Shown in pieces: positions 2,771 to 59,895 of a stretch of 64,000 bases of DNA. This DNA is from Citrus sinensis (taxonomy: Eukaryota; Streptophyta; Magnoliopsida; Sapindales; Rutaceae), in the NCBI RefSeq assembly GCF_022201045.2, contig NC_068556.1, positions 21,991,501 through 22,055,500 of the forward strand. The letters run 5' to 3'. A program made the position numbers and the translations under genes. The notes under the pieces were generated by a model. It was not told the origin of the DNA, did not search any database, and saw only the letters and a program-made list of their open reading frames with translations. Position 1 is the stretch's first letter, and each line of letters begins with the position of its first letter.

Positions 2771-2786
2771 CTGGTGTTAGATAAAT

Positions 2787-3770
2787 ATGAAGCTTTCGAT
2801 GACTGCCTGTAAACAAGCTGTACAGCCCCTGGTGACTTTCCAAGGGGTACACAAATTGGAGCATTTTTTTCGACGGAAAGACAAAGTCGTGTTCGTAATG
2901 GGAGCAACAGGCACCGGCAAGTCCCGTCTAGCCATTGATCTCGCCACCCGTTTCCCGGCGGAGATTATAAATTCGGATAAGATGCAGGTTTACAAAGGTC
3001 TTGACATAGTTACCAATAAGGTCACCGAAGAGGAATGCCACGGGGTCCCCCACCATTTACTAGGCATAATTGAACCAAATGCGAATTTCACAGCAACTGA
3101 TTTCAGAAACCACGCATCCTTAGCCATTGAATCCATCCTCAGCCGCGACCGGCTCCCGATCATCGCCGGCGGGTCCAGTTCTTACATCAAAGCCCTAGTG
3201 AACGGAGATGCTGCCGAGTTCCAATTAAGGTACGAATGTTTCTTTCTTTGGGTTGACGTGTCATTGCCCGTGTTGCATTCTTTCGTATCCGAAAGAGTTG
3301 ACAGGATGGTGGAATTGGGCCTAGTGGAGGAGGTTAAGCAAATGTTTGATCCACAAGCTGATTACTCAAGGGGTGTTAGGCGAGCCATTGGGGTGCCTGA
3401 ATTGGACCAATATATACGTGCTGGATCACTCCTAGATCATAAGATCCATGCTAAACTTCTCGAGGCAGCCATTAACAAAATTAAAGAAAATACATGTAAC
3501 CTATCTTGTCGCCAATTACAAAAAATTCATAGGCTCAACGACATATGGAATTGGAACATGCATCGAATTGATGCCACGGAGGTGTTCTTAAAACGAGGCG
3601 AAGAAGCTGATGAAGCGTGGGAGAAGCTCGTGATGCTACCCAGTACCATGACTGTTCGTCAATTCCTCTACGACGAAGATCGTGTGGCCACTATGCCGGA
3701 AACCGCCCCGGCTATCGTCAACACTCCACCGGTCCCTATTCCCACCGCTGTTGCTGCCGCAACCCGTTGA
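2787..3770 (+). CDS. IPT5: Adenylate isopentenyltransferase (cytokinin synthase), IPT5/IPT7 type
   Basis: This enzyme transfers the isopentenyl group of DMAPP to ATP or ADP, the first committed step of isoprenoid cytokinin synthesis. The protein is 327 residues in a single exon, the usual length and structure for plant ATP/ADP-type IPTs. The P-loop GATGTGKS is at residues 39-46, followed by INSDKMQVYKGLDIVTNK and PHHLLGI, both diagnostic of the tRNA/adenylate IPT family, and by IIAGGSSSYIKALV and RRAIGVPELDQY in the C-terminal half. No zinc-finger extension of the tRNA-IPT kind is present. The N terminus could act as a plastid signal, as for several IPTs, but this is weak here. The first Met is taken as the start. 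Assignment to the IPT5/IPT7 branch rests on sequence feel and on the neighbours (MEF18-like, L34e-like and MED33A genes), which match those around the Arabidopsis genes; IPT3 or IPT1 is possible. Regulation may involve a leader intron and uORFs. Confidence 0.9.
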   Translation: MKLSMTACKQAVQPLVTFQGVHKLEHFFRRKDKVVFVMGATGTGKSRLAIDLATRFPAEIINSDKMQVYKGLDIVTNKVTEEECHGVPHHLLGIIEPNANFTATDFRNHASLAIESILSRDRLPIIAGGSSSYIKALVNGDAAEFQLRYECFFLWVDVSLPVLHSFVSERVDRMVELGLVEEVKQMFDPQADYSRGVRRAIGVPELDQYIRAGSLLDHKIHAKLLEAAINKIKENTCNLSCRQLQKIHRLNDIWNWNMHRIDATEVFLKRGEEADEAWEKLVMLPSTMTVRQFLYDEDRVATMPETAPAIVNTPPVPIPTAVAAATR

Positions 3771-5103: not shown

Positions 5104-6078
5104 ACCTTTTGGCAAAAGGCCCAAGAGGGCTGAATTTGCATCCCATCGAGAGGAGGAAGAAGGGGGAAAAAAAAAGATTCAAAAAATAAAGTTGAATTTG
5201 GAACAACTTATAAAGGTAATACTTTGGCGTGATTGATTTGCAAAAATATAAAAACTAAAAATAAATAATCTTTTTAATTACATCGAAAAACATCAAGTTG
5301 GAATCAAGTCCATTAAAAGGTATTACTATTATTAGTAGCCTAGAAAGTAAAGATGTTCCAATTTTTGGCAATCTAGTATACGCTGGCTGCAAGTGGAGGT
5401 GGATGGCTTATGTGTGTCTGAGACGGTTGCCAATTTTTGTTGTTTAAACAATGAATTTTCTTTCCTTATTTGGTTAATAAAAGAGCTTCTGAAGCGCGAT
5501 TGGCATATTCGCATCAATCATATCTACCGAGAGGCCAATTACGTTGCAGATCATATGGCTAACCTCTCTACTTCCTTTTCACTGGGTCTCCACCTTTTGG
5601 CAAAAGGCCCAAGAGGGCTGAATTTGCATCCCATCGAGAGGAGGAAGAAGGGGGAAAAAAAGATTCAAAAAATAAAGTTGAATTTGGAACAACTTATAAA
5701 GGTGAATACTTTGGCGTGATTGATTTGCAAAAATATAAAAACTAAAAATAAATAATCTTTTTAATTACATCGAAAAACATCAAGTTGGAATCAAGTCCAT
5801 TAAAAGGTATTACTATTATTAGTAGCCTAGAAAGTAAAGATGTTTCAATTTTTGGCAATCTAGTATACGCTGGCTTCAAGTGGAGGTGGATGGCTTATGT
5901 GTGTCTGAGATGGTTGCCAATTTTTGTTGTTTAAACAATGAATTTTCTTTCCTTATTTGGTTAATAAAAGAGCTTCTGAAGCGCGATTGGCACATTCGCA
6001 TCAATCATATCTACCGAGAGGCCAATTACGTTGCAGATCCTATGGCTAATCTCGCTACTTCCTTTTCACTGGGTCTCC
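5104..6078 (+). repeat. Tandem duplication, period about 488 bp
   Basis: Two near-identical copies, 5104-5591 and 5592-6078, differ at only a few bases. GGCAAAAGGC starts at 5111 and again at 5599. Each copy contains unrelated flanking DNA followed by the 5' part of a truncated LINE. The junction is CTCCAC|CTTTTGG; copy two instead continues CTCCACATGTTTCC into the rest of the LINE. Only about 2 bp (AC) are shared at the break, which suits a microhomology or replication-slippage event after the LINE had inserted. Confidence 0.85.
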
Positions 6079-6218
6079 ACATGTTTCCGATTCCTCTTGA
6101 AAGTATCAAACCTTTACTTATTCATGATATGTATGGGGTAGTTTACCCCCGATTAGTTCATTCATAGCTCTTTGATTGAGAGCCTCGTTGTATCAAAAAA
6201 AAAAAAGTAAAGATGTTC
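5344..6218 (+). mobile_element. 5'-truncated LINE 3' end, partly duplicated
   Basis: Both copies encode the RNase H-like domain of a plant LINE: VDGLCVSE, then WHIRINHIYREANYVAD, then NL(S/A)TSFSLGLH. The second copy runs on to a stop (DMYGVVYPRLVHS) and ends GTATC plus a 12-bp A run at 6195-6206, the same tail as the element at 1.7 kb. The 15-bp word AAAGTAAAGATGTTC at 5344-5358 and 6204-6218 is the target-site duplication. The first copy stops at the tandem-duplication junction and reads into unrelated DNA. Not a functional gene. Confidence 0.75.
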
Positions 6219-11637: not shown

Positions 11638-12712
11638 TGAGAGGGAGATGTTTTAGAACTGTAAAAGATAATCTATTAATGTGATAAACAACTATATAGA
11701 AGGCATCCCACCAGAATTTAAATGGTAACTTGGCTTGAGCTAACAATGTAGGGTCTAATGTGTTTATGCTTCCTTTCAACTAAGCCATTTTGGTGATGTG
11801 TATAGAGGCAAGAATGTCTAAACATAATCCCACATTGGTTTAAAAAGTGAGTGAATGATCTATATTCTTCCCCCAGTCAGATTATAGGTTCTTGATGGTA
11901 GCATTGAATCGATTTTTAGCCTGTAATTTGAACAATTTGAAGACATCTAATGGTTCTGATTTTAATTTTAGAGGATAAATCCATGTATATCTACTGATAT
12001 CATCAACAAAGCTTATGTAATATGAGTAACTGTTTCTAAAAGGAATAGGTGAAGGACACCACGAGTCTATATGAATAAGTTCAAGAGCTTTAGTTTCGTT
12101 GACAGGGAAGTGAAGTCTGTGAACTTTGCCCATTTGGCATGCTTCACAGATATGTTCAAGTGCTTGCTTTTACTGAATTACTTGAGAGATTAAGAGAATG
12201 AACATTCTTTAGCAAAGGCATTAGTATTTGATGATAAGGATGACCAAAACATCTATGCATGAGAACAATTTTATTGATTGATGCATTACAAGAAAGAATA
12301 AAACTGAAAGTATTATTCTGAGCATCATTTGAAACATGTAAATTGAGATAACATACAGACAACATTGATAACGGTCTAATGGAAGGTGAGTGACATAAGA
12401 AAAACAAAGTGAAAGACTAAGATGACTTTAGAAGCAGCTTATACAACCTTTTCTTAGCAAGTCCCTACATAAGCACTTGCTTCTTCAGAGAGTCCTTCAC
12501 ATAACAGACATTGTCAACAAATTCAACAAAAATGTTATTATCAATTGTTAGTTTTGACATGCTCAATAAATTCTTAATAATGGTAAGTACTAACAATATA
12601 TCTTTAAGCAATATATATTTATAATTGTACTTTGTGTTTGAACATTTATAACTAAAACAAGCATCACCAATATAAATTATAAGCAAACCTTGCCTATCGC
12701 CAGTGATAAGCT

Positions 12713-13094
12713 GATTTGAGCCTTTGAATTCCTCTTTGACATACAAATTGACCATATTGTTGGTCAAATGATGTGTAGTACCACTATTAAGGTACCATCC
12801 TTCATTAGTAAATCATTCGTAGTTAGCAATATAAACTTTAGATGCAACAAATTCTTTTGATGGATAAAAAACAAAGTAGTGCATAAAGTCAAAACTTGAG
12901 TAAGATTTGAGCCTTTGAATTCCTCTCTGACATACATATTGATCATATTGTTGGTCAAATGATGTGTAGTACCACTATTAAAGTACCATCCTTCATTAGT
13001 AAATCGTTCGTAATTAGCAATATAAACTTTAGATGCAACAAATTTTTTTTATGGATAAAAAAAAAAGTAGTGCATAAAGTCAAAACTTAAGTAA
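12713..13094 (-). repeat. 191-bp tandem duplication inside the Copia relic
   Basis: GATTTGAGCCTTTGAATTCC occurs at 12713 and again at 12904, and the two 191-bp units (12713-12903, 12904-13094) match almost throughout, with point differences and an A-run length change. It doubles part of the protease/linker region, so it arose after or during decay of the element. Confidence 0.85.
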
Positions 13095-14078
13095 GAAACA
13101 ACATAATAGTCTTCAACAGATGATGCATAGCCAAAGAATGACTCAAAGTTAGCCATATAAGCAACTCAGGTCTCATATGTGGTGGCCTGTGAAATTACAT
13201 AGCATGTTCTCTGCCACAACCTCTAAAATTGCCATTACTAGTTGGAAAACCTCTAGGATATGAATTGAAGAACATGCCTTTACCAACATTGAGTCATTTG
13301 TTCCTAAAGTGACCATAATGTCTATTGCCATATAAACCTCTTTTAAAGTTACCTCTCATATGAAAGTAGTTAGCATTCATTGTACTGTTGTTGGCATTGG
13401 ACATAATTTTAACACCTTGACTTTGCTTAAGTTTGGCTTCACGTGTTAATAACAGAACATAGGCATCATCATAACTCATTTTATTTACAATGATAATTGA
13501 GATAGATCCAGATAGTTAAGGGTTAAGCCATTCAAAATCCTCATCAATAAATCTTTTTCAGCTATGTTATCACCAGCACAAGCAAGTTTATTAGCAAGTA
13601 TTTTCATTTCTACACAGTATTCTTCAACAGACATTGATTCTTTTATTAAAATATTCATTTTATATTGAAGCATTTTAACTTTAGATTGAACTTTAAACTG
13701 CCTTTCAATAATCTCTAAACATCAACAGAAGTGTCATAGCTAAGAATATAACTTAAAAAACCTTTACTGACGGTGGATAACAGCCAGCCAAGAAGTGTTT
13801 AATCTTATGCTCGCCAATTGATATATGATGGATTTTCAATCTTCCAAACTGATCTATCAACTATTGATTTAGAGAGATATTATTTTGAATGATATGAGGT
13901 TTTGAGATGAATTTTTGAAGATAATTTCCTCTAATTGAAGTCAATACTTGTTTACGTAAAGTGGAAAATTAGATCGATTGAGCTTTATAGTAGCAGCAAA
14001 GGTGAATGATGTTTGTGAAGATTGATTTGAGTTATTGATTGGTTATTCTAAAGTTATAGTACTTAAGCTAGTCATTGT

Positions 14079-16746: not shown

Positions 16747-16977
16747 GGGCAAGAAATAAATAGGCCAAATCTTTTGGGAGATTTTCTTATAATAAAGTTG
16801 TTTTAGTACTTTTTACTATATATTAATGTAAAAAAAAAAAAACAAATTAGAGAGAGTGATGCTCTCAACGCCCCTTGAATATCCTGACAAAGCCCATTTT
16901 CTTCTAGAATTACATTTAAGGAGAAATTCTTAGTGATAATGATTTAATAATTAATTTTAAATTGAATATATTTTATG

Positions 16978-17162
16978 AGTAATGATATAGTCACAAATTC
17001 TTGTACAAATTTATTTTGTACAAACTGATGTAACATTAATTTATTGGTTGAATTAAATATCTCTTGACTCACATGATTTATTTATATTATTTTATATTGT
17101 CATTCAACCAATAAATTAATGCCACATTAATTTGTACAAGAGTTTGTGGTTGTATCATTGCT
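16978..17162. repeat. MITE with about 35-bp terminal inverted repeats
   Basis: The left end GTAATGATATAGTCACAAA followed by TTCTTGTACAAATTT is mirrored by the right end, whose reverse complement reads GCAATGATACAACCACAAAC then TCTTGTACAAATTA. Length is about 185 bp. The flanking TGA on both sides may be a 3-bp target-site duplication, which would suit a PIF/Harbinger-type element. No coding capacity. Confidence 0.7.
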
Positions 17163-18925: not shown

Positions 18926-20309
18926 TTTGAAATCTTGTCAAGCCAATAAATGGGAAAGCATTTACGCACATCTTACTATTTAGGAACTAAAAATTGTTGG
19001 CACAGTCAATACCATGAAGAATAGATATTACCCAATGGAGTTTTGGACACTGGTTTTACAATGTTGGACCAAAACTAACTACATTTGCAGAATTTCTGGT
19101 TGATGTTATGGTTATGGTTCTGTAACTTTATACCTCTGTAAATCTTTGTGACATAAGATAGTTCCAGAATCTGTAATTCTTGAATTCTTGAATACGACCT
19201 TAGTTAGCAACTTGAATTCGACGTGACCTAGTCCAGTGACTTGAAAGTTGCGAGCATTTATTGTAGTAAGCTGCTGCTGTTTGTGGGAATGTAATTGCAG
19301 CCGTCAAGATGGTAATAACTACATTTGTGTTGTGAGAGAGAATCGAACTTGTTTTGTTGTTATACTGAATCATGTTGAATTTGTCGATATCATTGTAAAC
19401 ATAACGAGGTCTATTATATGGTCGTTAAACACAATGAATTCATTTGAAGCTACAACTTGAATTCCCTTCCTGATGACCTTTGATGAACTGGTTTTGAATT
19501 TAGATTGGAACAATTGTCATCTGTGATGATTGGATTGTTTTCACTTTACAATTTCTCAGGATAAATCTTGATCTTTATAGTAACTGCAATCCTTGTTGAC
19601 CTGCAGTTTTTTTAATTTCTGAAATATTACATTACATTAAGGAGTATAATTTTTAAATGTGATACAATCCAATATATGTATGTCAGGAAATCCAACCCGG
19701 CGCTTTCTCATGAATAGACGTAAATTGTAAACTTTAAAAATAAGGTGAGAAAGTGTTTGACCAATTTAATCATGTATTAAGAAATTTTTTTTTTTACTTA
19801 ATTTTTGTCAAATTTATTTTGTTGATGTGGGCTGTATTTAAAACTTTAGTAATTAAGAAAAATGAGAAGTACGATTTTCTTTTTGGATCTTCTTTTTATT
19901 TTTGGTTCAAAGACAAAAATACGGACATACGGTGTGAATTTAATAATAAAAATAAATTTTGTACGAATACGATGAAATTTGAAACAAAAGGTCCAGTAGA
20001 ACTCTTTATTAGACCTTTTCACGCGATCTAACCCATCCATGAAGCCCAAATAACTGATCGGTACGGGCCTAAGCTAAGGAGTATTTGTTCTAGTCAAAGA
20101 ATCTACCAGAACGCGCCACGTGTACAAAAATAATATTGTAATAATAAATTAATCATAAATGCCTTCATTTTCCAATCCGGATCGTACTCTGTTCATGGTC
20201 ATAACAGCAAACAACTCATAACAACAATAAGTGACTGAAACACATTGCAGTATTGCACAAACACAGCCTTTTTTTTCTTTTTTTTTTCAAATTAATTTAA
20301 CAGAAACGA

Positions 20310-20346
<37 letters not shown>

Positions 20347-20402
20347 CGTCATCATTCAACTGGATCAGAGAAGAAAGACAAGAGAGAGAGATCCAGACGA
20401 CG
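18926..20402. other. Intergenic between RRM and CBS genes, with (GA)n leader
   Basis: No gene is supported in 18926-20402. 20312-20341 is a (GA)15-type microsatellite just upstream of the DUF21/CBS start codon, probably in its 5' UTR; GA tracts there are common BPC/GAGA-factor targets in plants. A CACGTG word lies near 20117. Confidence 0.5.
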
Positions 20403-23400
20403 ATGCAATTACTAAATGCGGTGATGGCGACGCGGATGCTGACGTCGACGATGAAGAACGGCGGTGGCCCCTCGTCTGAAGGCATACCGTTTGGCTCCGT
20501 CTGGTGGTTCGTATACGCCGGAATTTCCTGCGTTTTGGTCCTCTTCGCTGGTATCATGTCTGGACTCACCTTAGGCCTCATGTCTCTCGGCCTCGTCGAA
20601 CTTGAAATCCTCCAGCGTAGCGGCACTCCCTCCGAGAAGAAACAAGCAGGTCTTCATTTATCCGCAGATTCATTATATTATACTTTAATTACTAATAAAT
20701 TAGTTATCTGGATCAAAATGTTATCGAATTGTAGAAATGATTTCGTTTATAATCAGTGATAATAATGAATGACAATGACAAAATGTCACGCTTTTTTGTT
20801 TGTGTATTTAGCGGCGATTTTTCCTGTGGTTCAAAAGCAACACCAGCTTCTTGTGACTCTGCTACTGTGTAATGCCGCTTCTATGGAGGTAGATAATTGG
20901 AAATTTTGTTTTTCAACTTTGTAGCTTCTATTATTTTCCAACTTAAATAAATTCTGAGATCATACATTTCCAATTTACTATCATCAAGCTTAGACGGGCA
21001 CTTAATGCTTGTAAGTTATAAAAGAGATTATTTTGTTTGCAGGAGATGTTGATACTCTGTTGAACAAAATCTTAATTTTAGCAACTCTTTGGTTTTCAAT
21101 TCCTTATCATTGTTTGAGATATAGTTCAACTTCTAGCTACAGCTAATGGCTTTGATGCTTGCCACGTGCAGGCCCTTCCTATATACCTCGATAAGCTTTT
21201 CAATCAGTATGTTGCCATAATACTCTCTGTCACTTTTGTTCTCTTTTTTGGAGAGGTATGTTATCTTAACTCTTGAGCAGTGTCATCTATTAGACCTTTA
21301 GTTTCTTCCTATCTGATTTTGAATTCATTGGAATTTGATTTTTTTTTTTTTTTTGATCCTTTTATTTGTAAGGTTATTCCACAAGCAATATGCACAAGGT
21401 ATGGACTCGCTGTAGGTGCTAATTTTGTATGGCTTGTGCGAATTTTGATGATTATCTGCTATCCGATAGCTTATCCCATTGGAAAGGTAAAAATTTGAGA
21501 CTGATGCTTAGATTTTTGTAAGATTTCATATAGCTAGAAATGTGTATTTATGCTGTCAACCTGAGGTGACCTCTAATCAAACTGCTGTTTCTAATTGCAC
21601 TAGAGGAGCCATCAGGCACCTCTTACATATGTTCAATATATTTGAGACCTTTGACTTTCTAGTATGGGTCTCTTGGGAGTTTATGACAACTAATATTTCA
21701 TGTCATTGCATCATTTATTGAAATAAATAGCTCTTTTGAATGTCTGTATGTGAGCCCTGGAGAGCTTTTCTTCGCCATATTTCATATTTTATTTCATTTT
21801 CTTACATGTTTTTAGTTGAAAATTGATAATAGTAGCGTAAGGAAGCATGGGAAATTTCCAATTTTCAATCCCTATTCTCCTTTTGGACTTGTGAGGCCTC
21901 TTCCTTTTCTCATCAATGATATATTTTTGTATAGCACGGAAAATTTTAGTTCTTTGCTTGGTGGACAACTGGTTCACTTCACTGTAATGATTCTTCATGT
22001 TTGATACATTTTGGGTTTCTTATTAAAAAAAAAAAAGTCAATGACAAAATCTTGCTCATGGGCCTACGGGATACTGCCCGCTGTGGATTAAGTCTGTTCC
22101 ACTCATTGCTTTTTCTTATTTTTGCTTGTTCTTGGCTAGAAATTCATGATAGTTTGTGGGGCTTTTGTAATGTCTTCTACCATTCTACACAAGTGGGTAG
22201 GGTGTGCATGACCTTTTATTTGGTTTCTCACTTTCTTGTGTAAAGGATTTTGTTTTATCCTTTAATTTCTATCTCTACATAGTTTTTGTGTTGAACACTT
22301 AATGTGATTTTATCTGCACTTTGGTACTAAAAAGAGTATATTTATCTTTTTATTTCTAGTGCTGACAAATTACTTGAATTGATATGTGTACTCCAGATCT
22401 TGGACTGGGTATTGGGACATAACGAAGCTTTATTTAGGCGAGCTCAGTTAAAAGCTCTTGTCACGATACATAGCCAGGAGGTAAAATAAAGCAGCTGGTA
22501 TAGCATAAACATTAGGTTTGTGAAGTATCAGTTTAAGAATGCTGAATATACCTAATGTTACTTATATTGCTTTTGACTACTTATTACAATAAGGAATGCT
22601 TTTCTTGGTATATGTAGGCAGGTAAGGGAGGCGAGCTCACTCATGATGAGACGACGATTATTAGTGGAGCACTGGATTTGACCGAAAAGGTATGCACTGT
22701 GATCACTGCTAAACTGCCAATCTGTAGCTGTTCTATTTTGCTAAATGAAAATCAGGGAATGCATCTGAAATCATTCCGTTGCTTATATTTATTCTTGTGT
22801 CTATGTTGCTTGTGCATGGATTAGGGTGAATGTACTGTGTTTTCATGCAAAATGTTTGCAGTTGGTTTTGGCTAGCAATTGTTTATGTGGTTAAATCTCA
22901 TCATGTAAACATTTTAAGGTGCATCCAATACTTCTATTAATTTGTTTCTTTTTACTATCTATAACTTGTGACTGAGATTTCAAGCTGTTAATGTGTTATA
23001 AAGCGGCTAGCTACTTCCTTAGGATCATGGTTGCTTACACTTGCTGATTGCATCTCGACTTATTCATTTTGCTACACTTCTTATTTCAACAGACTGCTGA
23101 GGAGGCTATGACCCCTATTGAATCAACTTTTTCCTTGGATGTCAATTCAAAGTTGGACTGGTAAGTATTGATCTTGAATATTTTTGGCATGTCTATTGAA
23201 ATTTTTTTCTTGAATAATTTTCTTTTTTGGAGTCTCTTTCTTACAAGTCTATGTTTTTGATGGCTGGGTAGTTATTGAAGGTAAATTCCTTGTTACATGG
23301 TCACCCTCCTATAACTAGTTCTTTGTTCTGATGCTTCTATGTTCATAACCAGCATTACACATTCATGTTGACTGGTATTTTTTTGTTCTTTATTCTTGCT

Positions 23401-25283
23401 TCTTTCCAATCTATGCTGCTTGTATGCCATAAAGGTCATATTTGTCAGGGATGTTTGAAGTTTCAGTCATCATCCTTTCTATGTTTTTTGGCTGGAAAAT
23501 TTCTATAATTTGTTGTACGCAATTTTTCGTTTACTCATACCTCTGTTTCTCTTTCCACACTAATAACTTAGGGAGGCTATGGGTAAAATTCTTGCTCGAG
23601 GTCATAGCCGGGTACCTGTCTACTCTGGGAATCCAAAAAATGTTATTGGACTTCTGCTGGTGGGTGTTAGAATCTGGAACATTTGATAAAGTTCTGTTTT
23701 GTATTGTATTCCTAAGTTCAAAATTGAAGCTTTTGTTAATTGTTTATTTCATTTCTTCCCTTTCTCTGCTGCTGGTTGGATTTAGGTGAAAAGTCTTCTC
23801 ACTGTACGACCTGAAACAGAAACTCCAGTTAGTGCCGTTTCAATAAGGAGAATTCCAAGGTTTGCTAATTCATCTTTGAATTTGCTTATTATTATTATTA
23901 TATGATGGAAATATTTGATATTTATTCTTGTGTGGTATGTCTTTCCAGAGTACCATCAGATATGCCTCTCTATGATATACTGAACGAATTTCAAAAGGGC
24001 AGCAGCCACATGGCGGCTGTTGTGAAGGCTAAAGGAAAAAGCAAGACTCTCCCACCAATGACTGATGGCAAAAAACCCAAACTGAATGAAGCCAAAGGCG
24101 GGGATTGTGACTTGACTGCTCCTTTGCTATCCAAGCAGGATGAAAAGACAGAAAGTGTTGTTGTTGACGTTGATAGGCCCTTGTCATCAGGCAGTATGAA
24201 CCGGCTATCCTCTTCACAACGTAGTGATTCGACAACAAACGGATTAATTTATGCATCTGAGGATATTGAAGATGGTGAAGTCATTGGTATCATCACCCTG
24301 GAAGATGTATTTGAAGAACTTTTGCAGGTGAAATAGAACTCCTTGGTATTCGACTTCATTTGTTTATTTGCTTGCTGCCACCAGACTGTATTTTGATGAT
24401 TTTCTTGAATAATGCAGGAGGAGATTGTAGATGAAACAGATGAATATGTTGATGTACATAAAAGGTGGTACAGAAAACTTTACAGTTGTGATGTAGGATT
24501 ATTGCAAAAACATATAATGAAGCTGGATGCTATTTAATTGTCTTTTGCAGAATCCGTGTGGCTGCAGCTGCAGCTGCTTCATCTGTGGCCAGGGCTCCAT
24601 CAAGTCGCAGGTTAATTGGCCAGAAAGGAGCTGCTGTAAGTGGATATCCTGTATGACTTACTATTTTTCTCGATTATTCTGTGGACATGTAGTTTATCAG
24701 GGAAAAAAAAAAAAAGAGAGAGAGAGAGAGAAATATATGGCGAACATCTTCTGGTAGAAAGAATAAAAATTATTAAACAAATTTCCTGAAATTAGGTTTC
24801 AATGGTTTTAGATTGCTCAGAAGTCAGAACTTTTAATCCAATATAATATGATGGCTCTGAGAGTGCATCTGGTGAAACAAATCAATGAACTTTATTTCTT
24901 TAACAACCTATAAAAAAATTTTATCCTGCTAACAAAATTTAGTTTTAAAAGAGTGTTGCCAAGTGTCCCTGCCCATTTTTTCTGAATGTAGCCATTTTCT
25001 AAGTTTCGTATTATTGTTCTACTGTCAAAAAAGGACTTAGAAATTAGTGGGTTCAATTAGTAGCATAAAATTACTCTAGTGATATATTTGGCCTAACAGT
25101 CACAATATTTCCCCCAAAATTTCCGCTTGTGAGTCGAGCTAAATGGTGCGGATTCTTGTTATTTATATTCTTCAGAATCAGGGAGGTCAAAGTAAGCAAG
25201 GGCTACCTCCAAAGAAAGCTGCTGAGAGTGATTCAAGTTCAACAAGAGCAACTCCTAGTGACCCTCCCCTTGACAGCAAGTGA
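20403..25283 (+). CDS. DUF21 / CBS-pair membrane protein (CNNM/CorC-like)
   Basis: Thirteen exons: 20403-20649, 20812-20888, 21172-21255, 21373-21486, 22397-22480, 22618-22689, 23093-23160, 23572-23659, 23786-23859, 23949-24327, 24418-24464, 24551-24635 and 25176-25283, giving 508 residues. All phases agree. The N-terminal half is a DUF21 (CNNM) transmembrane domain: [37 protein letters not shown], then helices in exons 3 and 4 ([34 protein letters not shown]). The region from about residue 227 carries two CBS motifs: [12 protein letters not shown] with [14 protein letters not shown], then [20 protein letters not shown]. About 85 low-complexity residues interrupt the second. Relatives in animals (CNNM) and bacteria (CorC) act in Mg2+ or divalent cation handling at membranes; the plant members are poorly characterised. 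The C terminus is Ala/Ser/Pro-rich. A start further upstream is possible but unlikely. Confidence 0.9.
24715..24731. repeat. (GA)n microsatellite in intron 12 of the CBS gene
   Basis: A short GA repeat preceded by a 13-A run. It also makes spurious short frames across the intron. Confidence 0.8.
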
Positions 25284-26136: not shown

Positions 26137-26274
26137 TCACTCGTCCCAACGAAGAAGAATCACTGTACACCTCCATATGATGTAAAAACGCGTTCGCTGC
26201 TCCCGTACAAGCCTCGAACATCGTTGCCATGATCCAAGCTTCCGAATCCCCCTTGAAGTTGATTCTCTCGCCAT
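26137..26274 (-). CDS. DVL/ROTUNDIFOLIA4-like micropeptide, 45 residues
   Basis: DVL/RTFL peptides are small plasma-membrane-associated plant proteins; overexpression restricts polar cell proliferation and alters leaf, fruit and inflorescence shape. The C-terminal part (from residue 14) shows the DVL signature: W..RCSRLVREQRTRFYII, then RC, a hydrophobic run and a final RW. The usual end is CWH, so RWDE is a deviation. The frame is open further upstream to a Met at 26514, but two TATA words (26406-26415 and 26346-26353, read on the minus strand) lie between that Met and 26274, and no other in-frame Met occurs. So 26274 is the likely start, and 45 residues is normal for the family. A second family member follows about 0.9 kb upstream on the same strand. 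Confidence 0.85.
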   Translation of the reverse strand: MARESTSRGIRKLGSWQRCSRLVREQRTRFYIIWRCTVILLRWDE

Positions 26275-26345
26275 CTTCAACTCACCGGAAGAGAAGACTA
26301 GGAGTGGTGTTCTACGTATCAGTTTGTAGCTTGAATTATGGAGAG

Positions 26346-26415
26346 TATATATAGTGGTCTCTGTGTAGCTAGCTGTTGGGGGATAGGGAGAGCTTAAGGA
26401 AACAAGGTTTATATA
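26346..26415 (-). promoter_or_regulatory. TATA words of the first DVL gene
   Basis: Read on the minus strand, TATATAAACC lies at 26415-26406 and TATATATA at 26353-26346, about 130 and 72 bp upstream of the ATG at 26274. Either would place transcription start downstream of the alternative upstream Met. Confidence 0.45.
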
Positions 26416-27169
26416 GAGAAGATTGTAGTAGTGGGTGACAATTGTAGCGGAAGATGAAGGCCCCAGAGAATAAAAAATTGACAAGACAGAGTCATCAGCG
26501 TGTCTCCCTGCCAAATCACCCTGGAAAATGACTTGCTATAACTTATCCTGATTCCAAGGCCCTTCCCTGTCTGTATATGGCTGTAAATTTGCCCCACACT
26601 CTGCAATCTATCACAAACTGATGCCCCCGAGTTCCGCAAGTGCTTGGATGGATTCGTTATGATGCTTCCTTTAATATATATTAAAGATTAGAAACGGAGA
26701 AGCTATTCGCAGACAATATTACCAGGGTATTTTGGTGCGCATTGACTTTGCATGGCATCATAATAAGCACTTTCAAACTTCAAAGCATCAAATTTATGTG
26801 AGGACCAGCAACAATTGTACAATTTTATACTCTTAATTTCTCTGGATGAGTCACCTTCTGAGGCTTTCAGATGTTAAACTGAATAATACGAAACGCAAAT
26901 AGGCATGCATGCAAGCTTTGTATATACACGTCACATATGTAAGTGTGCAAATCAAGAATTCATGTTTACATATGCGTTCATTACATTCTGATATATAAAC
27001 ATTAAGAAACATCAGATAACAAAATTAGCTATGGTAATATAATACACGTTCAGAACATTGAGTGCTAATCATGAGAACCAAGAATTAAAAGGAAAAAAGC
27101 CAAAAGAGTGGAGAAAGGAAGGCTCCATGAAAGTTGAAACTATATGTGACAGTTTTGAGCTTCTTGGTT

Positions 27170-27289
27170 TCAAGAGTACTTGTGCCAACAAAGAAGCATA
27201 GTGATGCAGACTCTCATGATATAGAGCTTCCCTCTCTGTTGCCTCACCATTCTCTTCCACTTTGCAAATCTCCTCGCCACTCTTCCCAT
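27170..27289 (-). CDS. DVL/ROTUNDIFOLIA4-like micropeptide, 39 residues
   Basis: An ORF of 39 codons plus stop, too short for most gene finders. The peptide begins MGRVARRFAKWKRMVRQQ, then RGKLYIMRVCITMLLCWHKY. It carries every landmark of the DVL/RTFL domain: a basic N-terminal stretch, the (K/R)..QR.(K/R)LYIMR block, a conserved Cys, the hydrophobic TMLLCWH core and a short hydrophilic tail. The family acts in shoot and leaf growth control at the plasma membrane; this one's role is unknown. A longer 63-codon frame overlapping it in another phase has no family match and is a shadow. TATATAAAG on the minus strand near 27370 would give a leader of about 45 bases. Intronless, as the family is. 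Confidence 0.88.
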   Translation of the reverse strand: MGRVARRFAKWKRMVRQQRGKLYIMRVCITMLLCWHKYS

Positions 27290-27361
27290 TAATTCAATTG
27301 CTCCTTGATTTGCACTAAGCATATATAAAAACTACAATTACCAAGTAAAATCTGTTGAGGT

Positions 27362-27373
27362 CTTTATATATGT
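27362..27373 (-). promoter_or_regulatory. Candidate TATA box of the second DVL gene
   Basis: The minus strand reads ACATATATAAAG here, about 75 bases upstream of the start codon at 27289. Confidence 0.4.

Positions 27374-56003: not shown

Positions 56004-59895
<3,892 letters not shown>

Follow-up and report, generated by a model that had tools for sequence, protein, structure and literature searches.

The stretch of Citrus sinensis DNA analyzed here (the window: 64,000 nucleotides, C1:21991501-22055500 of a 299.7-Mb assembly in 11 contigs) carries two micropeptide genes of the DVL/RTFL family, DVL-A and DVL-B, on the minus strand. The features needed for the argument are the following.

2781-3767 (+): IPT open frame, Pfam IPPT (scanned as 2790-3767); synteny anchor, partner L023:7750-8559
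about 20301-24534 (+): exons of a CNNM-like membrane protein, CBS part named by eye; synteny anchor, partner C3:44294780
26137-26274 (-): DVL-A, a 45-codon DVL/RTFL gene, RTFL13-like, matching PF08137; C-terminus LLRWDE with Arg42 at the usual Cys
26409-26415 (-): TATATAA, a candidate TATA box 141 nt before the start codon of DVL-A; suggestive only
27170-27289 or 27170-27322 (-): DVL-B, a DVL/RTFL gene of 39 codons (ATG at 27289) or 50 codons (ATG at 27322), matching PF08137, CWH retained
27364-27370 (-): TATATAA before DVL-B, 48 nt ahead of the 50-codon start and 81 nt ahead of the 39-codon start
within 56844-58602: two exons of a ribonucleotide reductase small chain, over the Pfam cut-off

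Both minus-strand ORFs had been called DVL in the initial annotation, and a search against the Pfam DVL profile (PF08137, cut-off 19.6 bits) bears this out: DVL-A scores 36.3 bits and DVL-B 36.0 bits in its 39-codon form (35.2 bits in its 50-codon form), each over 19/19 profile positions. The reported spacing of about 0.9 kb is likewise confirmed by the ORF coordinates; a random scatter of 20 loci would be expected to give about 0.0014 pairs lying 1.1 kb or less apart. Each gene is a small ORF with a variable N-terminus and a DVL domain close to the C-terminal end, as in the family at large. The S-acylatable Cys of the CW motif, a trait of the majority that does not define the family, is present in DVL-B and absent in DVL-A. 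DVL-A and DVL-B are best read as ordinary nuclear genes for DVL/RTFL micropeptides and add two members to a known family.

A genome-wide search with the DVL profile, in which 46 candidates were scored, gave at least 20 loci (a lower bound), and 20/20 scored over the cut-off. The profile found zero loci in 14 control genomes, and among 84 and 40 pattern stretches from viral and prokaryote collections, respectively, none was confirmed as a DVL relative. A search for solved structures of the 39-aa DVL-B peptide found none. The 50-codon DVL-B peptide also matched TMEM9, at 15.1 bits against a cut-off of 28.6, which we put down to chance. Two pairs of loci elsewhere in the genome have identical predicted peptides: L015/L016 (C3:47.636 and 47.890 Mb), 99.4% alike over about 3 kb, and L008/L009 (C3:0.649 and C4:15.446 Mb), 94.8% alike over about 3 kb. 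There are two possibilities for these pairs, recent duplications or duplicated assembly.

The short start of DVL-A had been preferred to a 125-codon extension on account of TATA words. The choice is right and the argument for it weak. The extension starts at TTG, and the whole stop-to-stop frame of 132 codons contains a single Met, the first residue of the 45-codon ORF; the start is settled by ATG usage and not by TATA words because no other ATG is available in the frame. The two words upstream of DVL-A (TATATAA and, 79 nt from the ATG, TATATAT) are close to the background of the window, about 0.5 TATAWAW per 300 nt. At the other 18 DVL loci, TATAWAW occurs within 300 nt before the ATG of the longest ORF in 8 (67-182 nt upstream) and is absent in 10, which is near chance expectation. 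ATG-started ORFs of 68, 45 and 41 aa on the plus strand and of 45 aa on the minus strand overlap DVL-A.

For DVL-B, the 39-codon ORF first reported is real, but it is one of three, since the in-frame ATGs give 50, 39 or 26 codons. The 39-codon ATG is weakly favored over the 50-codon ATG by (i) the base at +4, which is G at the former and C at the latter, and (ii) leader length, which for the 50-codon start would be about 16 nt if transcription begins at an assumed distance of about 32 nt past TATATAA. The longer frame said to overlie this ORF does exist, as stop-to-stop frames of 74 codons (-) and 53 codons (+), but only without an ATG start; starting at GTG or TTG gives 63 or 52 aa, respectively, and apart from its own frame DVL-B is overlapped by no ATG-started ORF that reaches 25 aa. 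DVL genes of 39-50 codons can be detected by profile and synteny, while ORF length alone is uninformative.

The IPT neighborhood proposed for the pair holds, with the IPT frame (IPPT, 137.4 bits) about 22 kb from DVL-A. Two scanned exons of the CNNM-like gene score 22.5 bits (E 1e-4) and 27.6 bits (E 2.6e-6) with the CNNM profile, each under the cut-off of 28.4. Over Pfam cut-offs are Serinc exons, a PPR gene and the two ribonucleotide reductase exons. We take the region at about 42.6-50.7 kb to be a MED33-like gene, of which one exon was scanned with no Pfam hit. The window also holds two repeats: two tandem 487-bp copies, 97% alike, at 5104-6080, with reverse-transcriptase/RNase-H-like frames (named by eye), and, within 12465-13096, two 191-bp copies (12713-13096), 94% alike, which overlap a minus-strand copia-like fragment (named by eye).

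In Arabidopsis, locus numbers follow chromosome order. We take RNR2A to be At3g23580 and At3g23637 to be a further DVL gene next to RTFL13; our literature search found no paper naming At3g23580 together with RNR2A and did not find At3g23637. With the order rule taken as general background, RTFL13 (AT3G23635) lies next to IPT7 (At3g23630) and in the neighborhood of MED33A (at3g23590) by locus number, the latter two numbers being given in PMC4691322 and PMC5480960. By these numbers, the window fits the IPT7/RTFL13 neighborhood.

Window order and strand are matched at C3 44.277-44.316 Mb by an IPT gene (+), a CNNM-like gene (+) and two DVL loci, L012 (-) at C3:44307513 and L011 (-) at C3:44315302. 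This comparison used tblastn of 844 window frames against 12 stretches of 10 kb, 8 from C3 and 4 from C7. When the CNNM-like gene is the query, the C3 copy ranks second to the gene itself with 103 bits, and the next match has 54 bits. Across the 80 kb of C3, nothing matched the Serinc, PPR, MED33-like or ribonucleotide reductase frames, and one further window frame (16947-17081) matched L030 out of order. Window and C3 copies of IPT differ at 0.857 of synonymous sites (268 codons), which is saturated, and those of the CNNM-like gene at a mean of 0.62 over 443 codons in ten stretches (single exons 0.47-0.94). Because these differences are saturated for IPT and high for CNNM, the duplicated block is old; that it stems from the eudicot triplication is a guess. 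In the 40 kb of C7 around L019, neither IPT, CNNM nor a second DVL gene was matched, and the three matches there are DVL-B to L019 and two weak ones. Two other regions, C8:1.47-1.81 Mb (L017) and C7:4.44-4.68 Mb (L010), each have a CNNM-like match and a DVL locus 245-343 kb apart. L010 and L017 pair in the DVL tree (99/98), and their regions are perhaps a further old duplicate pair.

The initial annotation saw in the two genes a hint of divergence after tandem duplication, which our searches do not support. Elsewhere in the genome, DVL-A is best matched by L012 (62% identity; 17 matches listed) and DVL-B, by score, by L005 (57% identity; 19 matches listed), with L011 and L012 ranking 14th and 19th of the 19 matches for DVL-B. 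With E up to 1 allowed, neither DVL-A nor DVL-B appears among the matches of the other. In a tree of 18 DVL proteins and 36 columns, in which 2/15 inner branches are well supported, modest support (82/87) unites DVL-A with L011 and L012, and L011 pairs with L012 (85/73). The branch of DVL-B is long and not firmly placed, and the two window proteins are not nearest rows to each other. Since their best matches lie elsewhere and neither finds the other, a recent tandem duplication followed by divergence was rejected as improbable. An older tandem pair common to the window and the C3 block was set aside, both C3 genes being DVL-A-like in the tree. Such a pair may nevertheless be reflected in L011, which occupies the place of DVL-B and whose frame matches DVL-B too (E 3.9e-6, vs 8.3e-8 for the DVL-A frame). 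L011 and L012 share the IIW[RK]C core of DVL-A, with the Cys kept in both, and seem to stem from a duplication of their own within the DVL-A type.

That DVL-A ends in RWDE where CWH is normal was noted from the start and stands: it is the only Cys-less member among the 20 listed loci. At the CW position, 19 of these have a TGT or TGC codon and DVL-A alone has CGT (Arg), a single transition from the TGT of its nearest relatives. Across 18 distinct DVL proteins, four residues never vary (in DVL-A numbering Y31, C36, L40 and W43), and 17 of the proteins have Cys at position 42. In Arabidopsis ROT4, the corresponding C42 is described as the main S-acylation site and as required for plasma-membrane association (PMC10897394, EMBO Rep 2024). 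That paper lists RTFL11, RTFL13 and RTFL14 as members in which this Cys is absent, and states that RTFL13 has Arg there, is not S-acylated and is distributed globally in cells, and that an R41C change gives more membrane association. The Arg form is thus a known subtype, already in print for Arabidopsis. Because it is common to RTFL13, Arg at the Cys site is probably older than this species.

RWDE most likely marks the orthologue of RTFL13, because RTFL13 has Arg at this place and, by locus number, IPT7 nearby, as DVL-A lies near IPT; this assignment rests on the Arg and the locus numbers. DVL-A could instead correspond to another Cys-less member, RTFL11 or RTFL14. Guo et al. 2015 (PMC4408365) place RTFL14 in one clade with RTFL13, citing their unpublished data, and treat RTFL13, 14 and 20 as a loose subgroup 5; the main text of that paper has no mention of "tandem" or "IPT". 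Other reports link an RTFL13 SNP to the effects of cucumber mosaic virus on the plant (PMC8067046) and describe RTFL13 expression as light-regulated (PMC11346216). Our literature search, which had most subscription papers outside its reach, found neither a report of the two neighboring DVL genes as a pair, nor a paper naming RTFL13 together with IPT7, nor the DVL-A and DVL-B peptide strings.

We consider it probable that the locus holds two ordinary DVL/RTFL genes, a soluble RTFL13-like DVL-A and an acylated, BSK-binding DVL-B. By analogy, DVL-A would be a short helical peptide that, with Arg for the S-acylated Cys, is soluble and weakly active when over-produced. DVL-B, in which the Cys is kept, would be S-acylated, attach to the plasma membrane from the inside and bind brassinosteroid-signaling kinases (BSKs), as ROT4 and RTFL18 do. 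Whereas our analysis itself shows the family membership, the Arg/Cys difference, the duplicated block and the purifying pattern of DVL-A, acylation, location and BSK binding are here transferred from the Arabidopsis papers. ROT4 and BSK5 are given as a binding pair (PMC10897394), and RTFL18 has been modeled as one long helix whose C-terminal residues I36, I39, R40, M43, L46, L47, H50 and D51 contact BSK3 (PMC10613268). A single-sequence structure model of DVL-B is also one helix (residues 4-38, mean pLDDT 76, pTM 0.36). Aligned to RTFL18 from the CW motif, DVL-B has Arg at R40, keeps Cys and His and has Lys for D51; in DVL-A, Trp stands at R40, Arg takes the place of the Cys, and the HD is replaced by DE. 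BSK binding by DVL-A may differ because of the Trp at the BSK-contacting R40 and the DE for HD, and is expected to be altered or weaker, DVL-B being the one expected to act as a membrane-anchored BSK partner. Counted against this explanation are the modest tree support for DVL-A, the L011-DVL-B match and the missing C3 partners.

An alternative is that DVL-A and DVL-B form a built-in pair, in which the soluble peptide competes with the membrane-bound one or buffers it at the same kinases. The presence of the acylation Cys in DVL-B and its absence in DVL-A would suit such an arrangement, as would the induction by low R:FR light of RTFL13, one of five RTFLs so induced, and of membrane-bound RTFL18 (PMC10613268). 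Against it, RTFL13 overexpression is reported to cause no abnormal phenotype (PMC10897394), and we regard a built-in pair as unlikely. A broader version, in which a lipidatable and a non-lipidatable DVL gene were paired before the split from the Arabidopsis lineage and have been kept so, with the soluble peptide modulating the membrane-bound one at kinases common to both, seems very doubtful to us.

It is also very improbable that either ORF, or the two together, is a remnant that is no longer transcribed or translated, although TATA words close to background density would be compatible with this. The frames are intact, the profile matches are strong and the codon contrasts show a purifying pattern. 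In six pairwise contrasts (Fisher test), DVL-A and L012 differ at 17/22.5 synonymous and 17/76.5 non-synonymous sites (p = 9.4e-6), and DVL-B and L005 at 15.4/19.7 and 30.6/85.3 (p = 8.2e-4); since constraint in either lineage shows up in a pairwise contrast, constraint on the partner alone could also produce it. The remaining p values are 4.3e-5 (DVL-A/L011), 1.4e-5 (DVL-B/L011), 0.007 (DVL-B/DVL-A) and 0.054 (L011/L012). The pattern of DVL-A is purifying. Least probable, and already largely refuted, is that one gene is a decaying copy of the other after recent tandem duplication, with RWDE a degenerative end: adjacency on one strand and the single transition from TGT to CGT agree with it, but the best scores lie with L012 on another chromosome and with L005, non-synonymous changes between DVL-A and L012 are relatively fewer than synonymous ones, and Arabidopsis RTFL13 has Arg at the same place.

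Under the preferred reading of two ordinary genes, a non-lipidatable DVL gene beside a lipidatable one is of modest interest. Should the Arg form prove to be conserved between Arabidopsis and this species, the missing lipid anchor would be a maintained state and no defect, and RTFL13-type peptides would be a natural test of DVL action away from the membrane.

Compared with known systems, the pair on C3 lies beside IPT and CNNM-like genes in the order and strand of DVL-A and DVL-B, but its members are 7.8 kb apart and, unlike DVL-A, both have the Cys. ROT4 (AT2G36985) and RTFL18/DVL1 (AT5G16023) have the acylatable Cys and the CWH end that are kept in DVL-B, in contrast to DVL-A, where the Cys is absent. 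Arabidopsis RTFL13, of the same RTFL/DVL family, resembles DVL-A in having Arg where other members are acylated (R41 in RTFL13, R42 in DVL-A) and, going by locus number, probably in its IPT neighborhood.
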